A stretch of 64,000 nucleotides of DNA. Origin: Rhodobacterales bacterium (lineage in GTDB: Bacteria > Pseudomonadota > Alphaproteobacteria > Rhodobacterales > Rhodobacteraceae). Of the stretch, positions 4,405 to 53,681 are shown piece by piece. The position numbers and the translations under genes are program-made. The notes under the pieces are model-generated. The model ran no database searches and was not told where the DNA came from. It worked only from the letters and a program-made list of their open reading frames with translations. The stretch is from assembly GCA_003249215.1 (NCBI GenBank), contig QKJR01000088.1, forward strand, positions 1 to 64,000, read 5' to 3'. Every line of letters starts with the position of its first letter. The stretch's first letter is position 1.

Positions 4405-5115
4405 TCAGTAGCTGCGGATCAGCCCGACGAGGCGCCCCTGCACCTTGACCTGATCCTCGCGCAGCATCCGCGTCTCATAGGCCGGGTTCGCCGCCTCGAG
4501 CGCGATCATCCCGCCGCGACGGTAATAGCGCTTGAGCGTCGCCTCATGCCCCTCGACCAGCGCCACGACGATATCGCCATTGTCGGCGGTCGTCTGTTCG
4601 CGGATGACCACGATATCGCCATCGTTGATCCCAGCCTCGATCATGGAATCGCCTTTGACTTCAAGGGCATAGTGCTGCCCGCGGCCGGACAGCATCGAGC
4701 CCGGCACCGCCACGTGATGCGAGACCTCGGCAATCGCCTCGATCGGCACGCCCGCCGCGATCCGCCCCATCACCGGCAGCTCGAAAGCATGGACCGCCTC
4801 GACCGGCATCGCGCCCGCGGGCGGATCGGTGCGGTCGCCCTCGATCACCTTGGGGGTGAAGCCGGGCGCGGCCGCGGATTTCGCGAGCGATTTTTCGAGC
4901 GCTTCGGGCAGCTTGACCACCTCGATCGCGCGGGCCCGATGGGCGAGGCGGCGGATGAAGCCGCGCTCCTCGAGCGCGGTGATCAGCCGGTGGATCCCGG
5001 ATTTCGAGCGCAGGTCGAGCGCGTCCTTCATTTCGTCGAACGAGGGCGGCACCCCGTCGCGATCCATCCGCTTCTGGATGAATTCCAGCAATTCCAACTG
5101 CTTGCGCGTTAGCAT
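4405..5115 (-). CDS. lexA: LexA SOS repressor/protease
   Basis: Represses SOS genes and cleaves itself when RecA is activated on single-stranded DNA. The 236-residue product has an N-terminal winged helix ([13 protein letters not shown], then the recognition region [20 protein letters not shown]) and a C-terminal S24 peptidase domain. The Ala-Gly cleavage bond is A121-G122 (RIAAGVP), the nucleophile is Ser157 in GDSM, and the general base is Lys195 in ATLKRY, so the protein looks fully active. The linker (residues 70-105) is longer than in E. coli LexA, as is usual in alphaproteobacteria. RBS GGAGGGG precedes ATG 5115. The promoter contains three GTTC half-sites (separate entry), so it is probably autoregulated. 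Confidence 0.97.
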
Positions 5116-5146: not shown

Positions 5147-5186
5147 GTTCACCCAAGGTTCTAGCGACGTTCCCTTTTCGTGTCAA
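5147..5186 (-). promoter_or_regulatory. lexA promoter with overlapping SOS boxes
   Basis: On the - strand a consensus -35 TTGACA (5181-5186) and a -10 TAGAAC (5158-5163) are separated by exactly 17 bp. On the + strand three GTTC units lie at 5147-5150, 5158-5161 and 5169-5172, each separated by 7 bp, giving two overlapping copies of the GTTC-N7-GTTC box known as the LexA site of Rhodobacter and other alphaproteobacteria. The boxes cover the spacer, the -10 and the transcription start region, which fits repression by LexA. Confidence 0.9.
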
Positions 5187-50531: not shown

Positions 50532-50561
50532 TGGCCCGATCAGATCTGGCCCGATCAGATC
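50532..50561. repeat. 15-bp tandem duplication over the corrinoid gene's stop codon
   Basis: TGGCCCGATCAGATC occurs twice in direct succession (50532-50546 and 50547-50561). The stop codon of the corrinoid gene (50555-50557 on the - strand) lies inside the second unit. A related GGATCGGGCC repeat just beyond (50513-50530) can pair with it to form a hairpin. Confidence 0.85.
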
Positions 50562-51247
50562 TGATTATGCTTGCGCGCGATCATGTCCTTGGCGGTCTGC
50601 ACCGCGATCGCGGCATCCCGGCAATAGGCATCCGCCCCGATCGCGCGTCCGAATTCCTCGTTCAGCGGCGCGCCCCCCACGAGGATCATGTAGCGCTCGC
50701 GCAGGCCCTGATCCTTGAGCGTGTCGATCACCACCTTCATATAGGGCATCGTGGTGGTGAGCAGCGCCGACATGCCGATGATATCGGCCTCTTCGCGCGC
50801 GGCCGCCTCGAGGTAATTCTCGACCGGATTGTTGATCCCGAGATCGACGACTTCGAAGCCCGCGCCCTCCATCATCATCGCGACGAGGTTCTTGCCGATG
50901 TCGTGGATGTCGCCCTTGACGGTGCCGATCACCATCTTGCCCATCCGCGGCGCGCCGGTTTCCACCAAGAGCGGCTTGAGGATCGCCATCCCGCCCTTCA
51001 TCGCATTCGCGGCCTGCAGCACCTCGGGCACGAAGAGGATGCCGTCGCGAAAATCCGCGCCGACGATCGTCATCCCGGCGACGAGGGCGCGGGTCAGCAC
51101 GTCATAGGGCGTCCAGCCGCGCGCGATCAGGATGTTGACGCCCTCCTCGATCTCCGCGCGCAGCCCGTCATAGAGGTCGTCATGCATCTGCAGGACAAGC
51201 TCTTCATCGTCGAGTTCCGAGAGGATGATGTCGTCGTCTTCGGCCAT
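50555..51247 (-). CDS. Cobalamin-binding methyl-carrier protein (MtbC/MttC-like)
   Basis: A 230-residue corrinoid protein that carries a methyl group between a substrate-specific methyltransferase and a second acceptor. The N-terminal helical cap domain covers about 10-95 and the B12-binding Rossmann domain 100-225. The key DXHXXG motif is present as GTVKGDIHDIGKNLVAMM near residue 112, with ILVGGAPLN near the end. The substrate may be betaine or a methylamine given the neighbouring DUF1638 and betaine-homocysteine methyltransferase genes. No MttB partner is in the window. Confidence 0.92.
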   Translation of the reverse strand: MAEDDDIILSELDDEELVLQMHDDLYDGLRAEIEEGVNILIARGWTPYDVLTRALVAGMTIVGADFRDGILFVPEVLQAANAMKGGMAILKPLLVETGAPRMGKMVIGTVKGDIHDIGKNLVAMMMEGAGFEVVDLGINNPVENYLEAAAREEADIIGMSALLTTTMPYMKVVIDTLKDQGLRERYMILVGGAPLNEEFGRAIGADAYCRDAAIAVQTAKDMIARKHNQI

Positions 51248-51385
51248 GGCGGGTCTCCTGAGCGGGGCGTGCGAGAATCCTTGCGGGAAAGGGGCCCAGG
51301 CGCTCGGCGATTTGCGACATGCGCCGGTCGGTCCCCGACGCGCGGCCAACCGCGGCCGCCGGCCAGGCCGAATCTCTTGGCAAAT

Positions 51386-51400
51386 GTTCTCAATTTGTTC
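51386..51400 (+). promoter_or_regulatory. SOS (LexA) box before the radical SAM gene
   Basis: GTTCTCAATTTGTTC (51386-51400) is an exact GTTC-N7-GTTC LexA box of the type seen at lexA itself. It ends 12 bp before the start codon and lies 3 bp downstream of a possible -35 (TTGGCA, 51377-51382), where bound LexA would block transcription. Confidence 0.85.
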
Positions 51401-51412
51401 TAGTTTGCCGCC

Positions 51413-52513
51413 ATGTCGATGCTGCCCCTCTCACTCCCTCCTGCCGATCCCGCGAAGCGCCTGCGCGCGCGGGGTGCCGCCCATGCGCCCAAGGGCCGGT
51501 TCGAACCCTATGAGCGGCTCTGGGAGCCCGACGGCTGGGAGCAGGAGGGCGAGGCTGAGGCGCCCGTGCGCACCGAGATCACGGTGGAGCAACCGCGCAG
51601 CATCCTGACGCGCAACGACAGCCCCGACCTCGCCTTCGACCGCTCGGTGAACCCCTATCGCGGCTGCGAACACGGCTGCATCTATTGTTTCGCGCGGCCC
51701 ACGCATGGCTATCTCGGGCTCTCCTCGGGGATCGACTTCGAGACCAAGATCGTGGCGAAACCCTCGGCGCCCGAACTGCTCGCGCGGGAACTCTCGCGGC
51801 GCGGCTACATGCCCGCCCCCCTCGCCATCGGCACCGCGACCGATCCCTATCAGCCGGCGGAGGCGAAACTGGGGATCATGCGGGGGCTGTTGCAGGTGCT
51901 GAGCGATTTCAATCACCCCGTCGCCATCGTGACGCGCGGCGCGGGCGTGCTGCGGGATCTTGACTTGCTGTCGGATATGGCGGGGCGCGGCCTCGTGCAT
52001 CTGGGGGTCAGCGTGACGACGCTCGACGCCGAGCTCGCCCGCAAGATGGAGCCGCGTGCGCCCGCACCTGACACGCGCCTGCGGATGATCCGCGAGGCGG
52101 CGCGGGCGGGCATTCCGGTACGGGTGATGGCCGCGCCGATGATCCCCGGTCTCACCGATCACGCACTCGAGGCGATCCTGACCGAGGCGCGGCGCGCGGG
52201 GGCGCGCGCGGCCTCGATGATCCCGCTGCGGCTCCCGCATGAGGTGGCCGATCTCTTCGCCGACTGGCTGCAGCGGCATTACCCGGCGCGGGCCGAGCGT
52301 GTGCTGAATGCGGTCGCGGCCTTTCGCGGCGGGCGGCTCAACGATCCGCGCTTCGGCAGCCGGATGCAGGGCGAGGGCACCGAGGCCGATCTGCTCGCGC
52401 AGCGCTTCGCGCTCTCGTGTCGGCGGCTGGGCCTCGATCGCGGGCTGCCCGAGCTCGACTGTAGCCGCTTCGCGCCGCCGCCCCGGCCGGGGGATCAGCT
52501 GGAGCTGTTCTGA
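51413..52513 (+). CDS. PA0069-family radical SAM protein (SplB-like)
   Basis: A 366-residue radical SAM protein. The 4Fe-4S motif CEHGCIYC is near residue 85, just after SVNPYRG, followed by ARPTHGYLGLSSGIDFETKI and TDPYQPAEAKLGIMRGLL. It belongs to the group related to spore photoproduct lyase (COG1533), annotated as DNA repair photolyase-like, but its reaction is unproven. An exact LexA box sits just upstream, so here the gene is probably induced by DNA damage, which supports a repair role. It is on the opposite strand to the methyl-transfer genes around it. Confidence 0.92.
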   Translation: MSMLPLSLPPADPAKRLRARGAAHAPKGRFEPYERLWEPDGWEQEGEAEAPVRTEITVEQPRSILTRNDSPDLAFDRSVNPYRGCEHGCIYCFARPTHGYLGLSSGIDFETKIVAKPSAPELLARELSRRGYMPAPLAIGTATDPYQPAEAKLGIMRGLLQVLSDFNHPVAIVTRGAGVLRDLDLLSDMAGRGLVHLGVSVTTLDAELARKMEPRAPAPDTRLRMIREAARAGIPVRVMAAPMIPGLTDHALEAILTEARRAGARAASMIPLRLPHEVADLFADWLQRHYPARAERVLNAVAAFRGGRLNDPRFGSRMQGEGTEADLLAQRFALSCRRLGLDRGLPELDCSRFAPPPRPGDQLELF

Positions 52514-52597: not shown

Positions 52598-53608
52598 TCA
52601 CCCGCGCCGCCGGCCGCGGCGTTCGCGCGCGGGGCCTTCGTCGCCGGTGCCGTCCGAGGCCGAGGAGAAGCCGCCAAGCCGGGCCGAGACATCCTCGAGC
52701 GTGGGCCGGGGCCCGCGCGGGCGGGTCTCGAGCGCGGCGCGCATCGCGCGCAGATGCTCGGGCATCGTGCCGCAGCAGCCGCCGATGATCGTGGCGCCCG
52801 CGTCGCGCGCGAGGCAGGCGTAATCGCCCATCAGCGCGGGCGTGCCGTCGTAATGGATATGGCCGTCGTAATATTTCGGGATCCCGGCATTGCCCTTGGC
52901 GATGATCGGCCGCTCGGTCCCGGAGGCGGTGAAGCCGAGGATCGTGCGCATCAGATCGGCCGCACCGACCCCGCAATTCGCGCCAAAGGCGAGCGGCGGA
53001 TTGGGCAGCGTCTCGACCAGCGCCGCGAGCTGCGCCGAGGTCACGCCCATCATCGTGCGCCCGGCCGTGTCGAAGCTCATCGTGCCGCACCAATCCATCC
53101 CGGCAAGCGCCGCGGCCTCGGCGGCAGCGGCGAATTCCTCGATGGCCGAGATCGTCTCGACCCAGAGCACGTCGGCGCCGCCTTCCTTCAGGCCCTCGGC
53201 CTGTTCGTGGAACATCTCGACCGCGAGCGCATGGGTGAGCGTGCCCATCGGCGCGAAGATCTCGCCGGTAGGGCCCATCGAGCCGCAGACCGCCACCTCG
53301 CGCCCGGCCTTTTCGGCCACCTCGCGGCCGATCTCGGCGGCGAGTCGGTTGAGCTCGCGCACGCGTCCCTGTGCCGCGTGGAGTTTGAGCCGCGAGGCAT
53401 TGGCGCCGAAGGAATTGGTCAGAAAGAGGTCCGATCCGGCCTCGACCGCGCCGCGATAGAGCGTGGCGATCCGGTCGGGGTGATTGGCGTTCCACAGCTC
53501 GGGCGGTTCGCCCGCGCTCAGCCCCATGTTGAACAGGTTGGTGCCAGTCGCGCCATCGGCCAGAAGCCAGTCGCGGGCGCCCAGCAGGCGGTTCAGGGCA
53601 TGGGTCAT
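52598..53608 (-). CDS. Betaine-homocysteine S-methyltransferase-like protein
   Basis: A 336-residue zinc-dependent homocysteine methyltransferase (MetH N-terminal/BHMT fold). LLADGATGTNLFNMGL is near residue 15. Zinc ligands are visible as GANCGVG and GGCCGTMPEH, and SNSFGAN-like LTNSFGANASRLKLHA is present. It probably makes methionine from homocysteine with betaine as donor, as in roseobacters. The C-terminal tail is rich in Arg and Gly. ATG 53608 (MTHALNRLLGARDWLLADGA) is preferred over a longer frame. Together with the corrinoid and DUF1638 genes it makes a methyl-transfer neighbourhood. Confidence 0.88.
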   Translation of the reverse strand: MTHALNRLLGARDWLLADGATGTNLFNMGLSAGEPPELWNANHPDRIATLYRGAVEAGSDLFLTNSFGANASRLKLHAAQGRVRELNRLAAEIGREVAEKAGREVAVCGSMGPTGEIFAPMGTLTHALAVEMFHEQAEGLKEGGADVLWVETISAIEEFAAAAEAAALAGMDWCGTMSFDTAGRTMMGVTSAQLAALVETLPNPPLAFGANCGVGAADLMRTILGFTASGTERPIIAKGNAGIPKYYDGHIHYDGTPALMGDYACLARDAGATIIGGCCGTMPEHLRAMRAALETRPRGPRPTLEDVSARLGGFSSASDGTGDEGPARERRGRRRG

Positions 53609-53681
53609 GGCGGGGCCTTTCGCTGCAAACCGGATGAACCCGGACGCGCCCCTCCTGCCACGCGACGGGGGATTCGGCAAT

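Follow-up and report, generated by a model that had tools for sequence, protein, structure and literature searches.

The window studied here, a stretch of 64,000 nucleotides from a Rhodobacterales genome, contains a gene for a radical SAM protein of the PA0069 family (51413-52513, + strand, 366 aa), and we found that a LexA box of the alphaproteobacterial type GTTC-N7-GTTC, GTTCTCAATTTGTTC (51386-51400, + strand), ends 12 nt before its ATG at 51413. The box is real and, judged from its conservation in orthologues, very probably a working LexA operator, and it is very likely that LexA would bind there and that the radical SAM gene would be induced. The explanation as a whole, which we consider highly likely, is that the operator lies in the spacer of the promoter and that the gene encodes an SOS-controlled radical SAM enzyme other than spore photoproduct lyase (SPL). 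The reaction of the enzyme is not settled by the SOS box.

Conservation of the box and exchange of its motif

The preliminary description of this DNA had placed an exact GTTC-N7-GTTC site 12 nt from the radical SAM start and had claimed the same form of box at the lexA gene of the window, and both were borne out. The lexA gene, which encodes the presumed repressor (4405-5115, - strand; TIGR00498, 189.5 bits with a cut-off of 110.95), has two overlapping matches upstream in a pattern search (5147-5161 and 5158-5172, + strand). Since the three matches in the window compare with 1.07 expected, with 13 of 100 shuffles of the window also reaching three, and since the whole genome holds 61 matches compared to 35 for the reversed-pattern control, the bare pattern is weak evidence when taken alone. 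These counts are what speaks for the box being a coincidence, such as a pattern this short can produce where the DNA is rich in GC.

In a scan of contigs, the best 80 of 587 confirmed relatives were taken as the nearest orthologues, and in each a region of some 320 bases, taking in the start and the DNA ahead of it, was searched. The results show that the box is present on the sense strand in 69 of these 80 loci and on the opposite strand in one (L048); the other 10 have it on neither strand, and six of them are titled Pseudomonas. Each of the other spacings of the GTTC pair from 3 to 12 was seen in between 0 and 5 of the 80 loci, and the remainder of the loci (448,695 bases) holds three sense and three antisense GTTC-N7-GTTC sites. 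Since the nearest 80 had been chosen by similarity, a second, even sample of the Rhodobacteraceae was drawn (149 genomes, 148 genera), in which 106 genomes, the window's own included, exceeded the cut-off of NF033668, the model of the PA0069 family. The preliminary description had named close relatives as the place where a missing box would count against LexA control, and the exact sense-strand box was found upstream of the gene in 97 of the 105 relatives left after removal of the own genome (30 plus 75 loci). Among the eight without it, L141, L161, L163 and L191 have a one-letter variant near the start, L147 has the exact box on the opposite strand, L133 has one-letter variants only, farther upstream, and L164 has neither box nor one-letter variant within 210 bases upstream of the point where the profile match begins; L139, at a contig end where the upstream DNA is too short to judge, is counted with them. 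When hand-picked upstream stretches were checked for orientation and frame, 75 of 75 and 60 of 60 read open from the profile start. Retention of the box in so many relatives, for the most part equally far from the start codon and always spaced by 7 nt, together with the rank of the window site as the best of the 59 scored in its genome, leaves a chance match next to no probability, and it was rejected by the orthologue, spacing and strand controls.

In L048 and L147, the box is inverted relative to the gene (GAAC-N7-GAAC) and lies immediately before the start codon, so that LexA may act in either direction there. The promoter sequence is identical in L065, from a record titled Enemella evansiae TN21-6, and in L189, from a Rhodobacteraceae genome (G002). 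Enemella evansiae is an actinobacterium, and it seems that the record either contains a Rhodobacteraceae genome or is one. The alpha-type box is also present in L055, which is titled Mycobacterium sp. KBS0706.

In a wider sample, GTTC-N7-GTTC was found in 56 of 60 alphaproteobacterial orthologues. The first 30 of these were the best matches of the phylum sample and all carry the exact box, 26 of them coming from two families and hence being close kin; the second 30, from 16 families, carry it in 26. Together with the 97 of 105 Rhodobacteraceae, these counts give the operator conservation by which membership in the alphaproteobacterial LexA regulon is judged. The place of this box is taken by CTGT-N8-ACAG, the E. 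coli-type LexA motif, in 29 of 30 orthologues sampled from the family to which L063 (titled Pseudomonas) belongs, which are 30 of the 32 genomes above the family cut-off, and in 15 of 30 other beta- and gammaproteobacterial orthologues, a set defined here as genomes of the same phylum outside the class of the window. Both this last set and the second alphaproteobacterial set were picked by hand for family spread. At nine other spacings, CTGT and ACAG occur in at most 1 of 30 orthologues of the Pseudomonas family and at most 2 of 30 of the beta/gamma set, and the 15 beta/gamma orthologues without the exact site include a single one with a one-letter variant. The alpha motif is found in none of the 30 beta/gamma orthologues and in 1 of 30 from the Pseudomonas family. 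The strongest argument that the control matters is that a LexA-type site has often been kept while the motif changed between clades. LexA control is not universal, since 15 of the 30 beta/gamma orthologues and four of the second alphaproteobacterial set lack an exact site. Conservation and this exchange of motifs strongly support the earlier claim that the gene belongs to the SOS regulon, the binding itself being predicted.

Sites elsewhere in the window's own genome were scored with a matrix for which the boxes of the radical SAM gene in 96 Rhodobacteraceae loci were used, with the own genome left out. The window site scores 33.9, the top of 59 distinct sites, a rank that is partly built in since the matrix derives from the same gene in other genomes; the 99.9th percentile for random GTTC-N7-GTTC sequences with the same matrix is 21.5. 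Twelve sites score at least 15. Among the high-scoring sites, GTTCTCATCTTGTTC (19.0) adjoins recA (572 bits to the recA model, cut-off 325), and others lie beside uvrB (1029 bits, cut-off 743), lexA (189.5 bits, TIGR00498) and uvrA (654 bits, cut-off 1147, the gene being truncated by the limits of the region examined). Two more are found at an imuA/imuB-like cluster, named partly by eye (28.6 bits to ImuA and 41.4 bits to a model of DNA polymerase IV, neither of which reaches the cut-off). The genes at five of the twelve (L009, L019, L024, L029 and L227) have no supporting identity, and the protein at L029, MmcB-like by eye, has no NCBIfam match. Of the two genes by which a LexA regulon is recognised here, lexA and recA, both are present in the own genome, and recA is also boxed.

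Two of these sites mark other genes. On contig C20, a strong LexA-like box (L009:130-144, + strand, score 27.6) lies near the contig end and 26 nt upstream of an ORF of 345 aa without an NCBIfam match, which is a candidate further SOS gene. On contig C48, the box of L024 (18747-18761, - strand, score 22.9) marks the 5′ end of a gene that scores above cut-off for a ‘sunset’ domain (49.2 bits, cut-off 27); its nuclease matches are weak and stay below cut-off.

Probable promoter anatomy, start codon and neighbouring genes

The bases around the box are also conserved. In 96 relatives, T stands at both -8 and -1 before the box in 90% of cases and G at -6 in 72%, and the box is followed by T (79%), A (92%), three variable bases and T (72%). 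From this consensus we infer a TTG...TAnnnT promoter in which the operator would fill a 17-bp spacer. By comparison with the relatives, the putative elements in the window are a -35-like hexamer, TTGGCA (51377-51382, + strand), and a -10-like hexamer, TAGTTT (51401-51406, + strand), which abuts the operator. The spacer between them is 18 bp, and the TTG of the window sits one base farther out than the consensus of the relatives. Single promoters are looser, with TTG in 59 of 97, TAnnnT in 53 and both in 28, of which 22 have the 17-bp spacer; since both elements are rightly placed in only these 28 of 97, the promoter is known from the consensus and not genome by genome.

An in-frame ATG or GTG is found 11-13 nt past the box in 87 of 97 Rhodobacteraceae, and at exactly 12 nt in 68. 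In alphaproteobacteria outside the Rhodobacteraceae the distance from box to start is variable, and so the fixed geometry is confined, as observed, to the Rhodobacteraceae. AGGA, GGAG or GAGG occurs within 22 nt before 6 of 90 such radical SAM starts; of the 24 starts that a motif search located for the divergent corrinoid-protein-like gene, 18 are preceded by Shine-Dalgarno-like words, these comparison starts being drawn from a different genome set (the 80 nearest loci and the window). Since transcription from the -10 element would be expected to start on the ATG or beside it and since Shine-Dalgarno-like words are few, the message of the radical SAM gene is probably leaderless in Rhodobacteraceae. 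A narrow literature search found no earlier report of a leaderless LexA-controlled message in Rhodobacter. In the mechanism that we propose, LexA bound to the operator in the promoter spacer would block RNA polymerase, and upon DNA damage RecA would trigger the cleavage of LexA, by which the radical SAM gene would be turned on. In Rhodobacteraceae, the -10 element would abut the operator and the start codon would lie approximately at the transcription start, giving a leaderless message.

The window gene is flanked by a divergent corrinoid-protein-like gene (50555-51247, - strand) and by a convergent homocysteine-methyltransferase-like gene (52598-53680, - strand), both named by eye, and the 80 nearest loci include 28 with the first kind of neighbour and 27 with the second. 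With the operator 138 bp from the corrinoid-protein-like start at 51247, and the divergent arrangement recurring in 28 of 80 loci, the operator could be thought to serve mainly that gene; however, the box stays with the radical SAM gene among other neighbours, such as an rnhB-like gene in 25-26 of 80 loci, and its orientation relative to the radical SAM gene is 69 sense to 1 antisense, so that this reading deserves hardly any credence. The rnhB-like gene (RNase HII-like, by eye) lies downstream on the same strand in Rhizobiales and several other alphaproteobacteria, and was counted in 26 of the 80 loci by clustering and in 25 by motif search (L053-L110, for example L071:3575-4297, + strand). 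If it is co-transcribed with the radical SAM gene, rnhB would be SOS-controlled too. Operon partners were also considered as a clue to the reaction and were set aside, as the corrinoid-protein-like, homocysteine-methyltransferase-like and rnhB-like genes name no substrate.

Relation of the radical SAM protein to spore photoproduct lyase

The assignment of the protein to the PA0069 family in the preliminary description holds, with 476 bits to NF033668 (cut-off 360) over profile positions 1-348 of 348. Pfam gave a Radical_SAM match of 62.5 bits and no domain besides it. The iron-sulphur motif CX3CX2C reads CEHGCIYC (51665-51688, + strand; Cys 85, 89 and 92) and is invariant in 38 of 38 orthologues. 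The nearest other named family, NF038135 (Rv2578c family), matches residues 61-295 with 237.5 bits, and its cut-off of 430 bits is not reached by the window protein. In a search of solved structures, the family profile matched only SkfB and NifB (E from 0.001 to 0.02, the matches spanning 53 to 76 positions of the profile), and the single sequence had no match.

SPL (PF20903; PDB 4fhc and others) and the window protein are both radical SAM proteins with CX3CX2C, and they share a loose likeness of the barrel: a profile-profile comparison of the PA0069 and SPL alignments paired residues 172-285 only, a partial barrel, with 70% probability. In contrast to SPL, the window protein has neither a match to the SPL profile nor a fourth cysteine conserved in its family. 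No match to PF20903 was listed at E up to 10, a search limited by HMMER filters that discard most matches above E of about 0.1, and a profile of 38 family sequences found no SPL structure up to E = 0.1. By comparison, a profile of three SPL relatives from one alphaproteobacterial genus found 4fhc at 6e-75, and the fourth cysteine of these relatives aligns with a cysteine of 4fhc. The fourth cysteine of SPL is the hydrogen donor, and the SPL reaction, in which 5-thyminyl-5,6-dihydrothymine is repaired, belongs to spores. Across the 38 orthologues, no cysteine outside CX3CX2C is conserved, the next-best column having 17 of 38. When IGTxTDPYQP of the PA0069 family is paired by eye with EASCYTDPL of the SPL relatives, the position of the SPL cysteine is occupied by Thr, Ala, Gly, Ser and Val in 28, 7, 1, 1 and 1 of the 38 orthologues; this position is tentative, since it depends on a by-eye match on the TDP motif where the profile alignment stops short. 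The absence of a conserved fourth cysteine is independent of that placement.

It has been read from the same kind of gene, in 2012, that SOS control adds a direct reversal of UV lesions, which would make the gene an SPL or the performer of the SPL reaction. The CX3CX2C motif shared with SPL relatives, the partial profile alignment and the name splB in the passages of PMC3323433 and PMC8565304 on that gene, if it is of the PA0069 family, all point that way; the missing profile and structure matches, the lack of a conserved cysteine outside CX3CX2C and the residues at the by-eye SPL-cysteine site argue against it and make it improbable. Of the kinship with SPL claimed in the preliminary description, a distant relation through the partial barrel stands, and anything closer finds neither the PF20903 match nor a conserved fourth cysteine. 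The SPL or photoreactivation reading of the PA0069 family does not fit its sequence, and on this comparison the name ‘spore photoproduct lyase’ should not pass to the family. Of 299 Pseudomonadota sampled, 5, which belong to a single genus, have proteins above the cut-off of the SPL profile, and a search of the own genome (82% complete) at E up to 0.001 yielded no match to PF20903. Five genomes of the alphaproteobacterial genus g163 carry one or two PF20903 proteins each (L252-L256 and L258-L260), and the three of these proteins that score above 240 bits possess the fourth cysteine.

Earlier work, possible function and distribution

PA0069 itself is reportedly among the 15 LexA genes of P. aeruginosa described by Cirz et al. 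in 2006. In a review devoted to the SOS response of P. aeruginosa, the number of LexA genes is given as 15, and the name ‘PA0069’ is absent from its main text. Our literature search found no paper joining PA0069 with radical SAM or LexA, nor Rv2578c with LexA. The SOS link is not new: according to the passages on splB in Sanchez-Alberola et al. (2012; PMC3323433), it was already predicted for alphaproteobacteria, this clade included. There, splB is predicted to be controlled by LexA in alphaproteobacteria as well as betaproteobacteria; the species set includes Paracoccus denitrificans and Rhodobacter sphaeroides, and the trait is stated as unobserved in gammaproteobacteria. In addition, the passages call splB homologous to the B. 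subtilis spore photoproduct lyase, which is read as photoreactivation, and they describe two different LexA motifs at splB, so that the argument from motif change had already been made for alpha- versus betaproteobacteria. A P. denitrificans orthologue carries GTTCTCTAAATGTTC 12 nt before its ATG, and splB as treated in those passages is very probably the same gene, with the same claim, as the PA0069-family gene here. Compared with that account, we found a LexA-type site in 29 of 30 Pseudomonas-family orthologues and a protein that does not match SPL. Our additions are the large sample with its controls, the extension to relatives in Pseudomonas, the geometry of the promoter together with a probable leaderless message, and the arguments against identity with SPL.

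Related proteins appear in other studies. In the relevant text of PMC8565304, SplB (COG1533) belongs to the Bacteroidetes SOS network and is SOS regulated in several species; it resembles the window gene as a radical SAM protein under LexA-like control, but it differs in phylum and in LexA motif. SplB-like radical SAM proteins are also placed in SOS neighbourhoods in part of PMC3765255. LexA sites of Dinoroseobacter shibae are predicted in PMC6473078, whose main text contains neither ‘radical SAM’ nor ‘photolyase’.

The preliminary description had further taken SOS control as independent evidence that the protein repairs DNA. A role in DNA damage gains in likelihood from such control, which is no evidence of repair chemistry. 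LexA regulons include genes that do not repair DNA, and hence SOS control is no proof of repair. In our proposal, the SAM-radical enzyme would work in growing cells, either on DNA that has been damaged or on something arising together with the damage, and its target would not be the spore photoproduct. We lean towards DNA lesions as the substrate of PA0069-family enzymes. It is rather unlikely that the SOS-controlled enzyme has RNA, a protein or a metabolite as its target instead, in which case it would accompany the damage response as an adjunct without being a repair enzyme. Radical SAM chemistry is very diverse, and the Radical_SAM domain is the only one found by Pfam, both of which leave room for such an adjunct; against it, control has been kept across alpha-, beta- and gammaproteobacteria with differing LexA motifs, which favours a core damage function.

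A more specific proposal, that the PA0069 family carries out a widespread SOS-induced, light-independent reversal of lesions in growing cells by non-SPL chemistry without a donor cysteine, is offered tentatively and with somewhat less than even prospects. If true, the family would be an unrecognised pathway of direct reversal in a large share of Pseudomonadota, and in Rhodobacteraceae its message would be leaderless. The regulatory link between LexA and the PA0069 family is firm enough to act on: should a lesion be found, the SOS response gains a direct-reversal step, and should there be none, the scope of the SOS response widens.

The family was found above the cut-off in 171 of 398 sampled Pseudomonadota genomes. 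In the sampled Rhodobacteraceae, 40 of 149 genomes have no family match and 43 have none above the cut-off, so that the gene is dispensable. The polymerase model NF004225 exceeds its cut-off in 170 of the 398 genomes; any co-occurrence with the family would be confounded by kinship and by small genomes without both. Matches were also found in 11 phage records, all below 60% identity and none spanning 80% of the query, and in 77 plasmid records, 26 of which span at least 80% of the query; among the 20 plasmid matches listed, all records are larger than 0.8 Mb.
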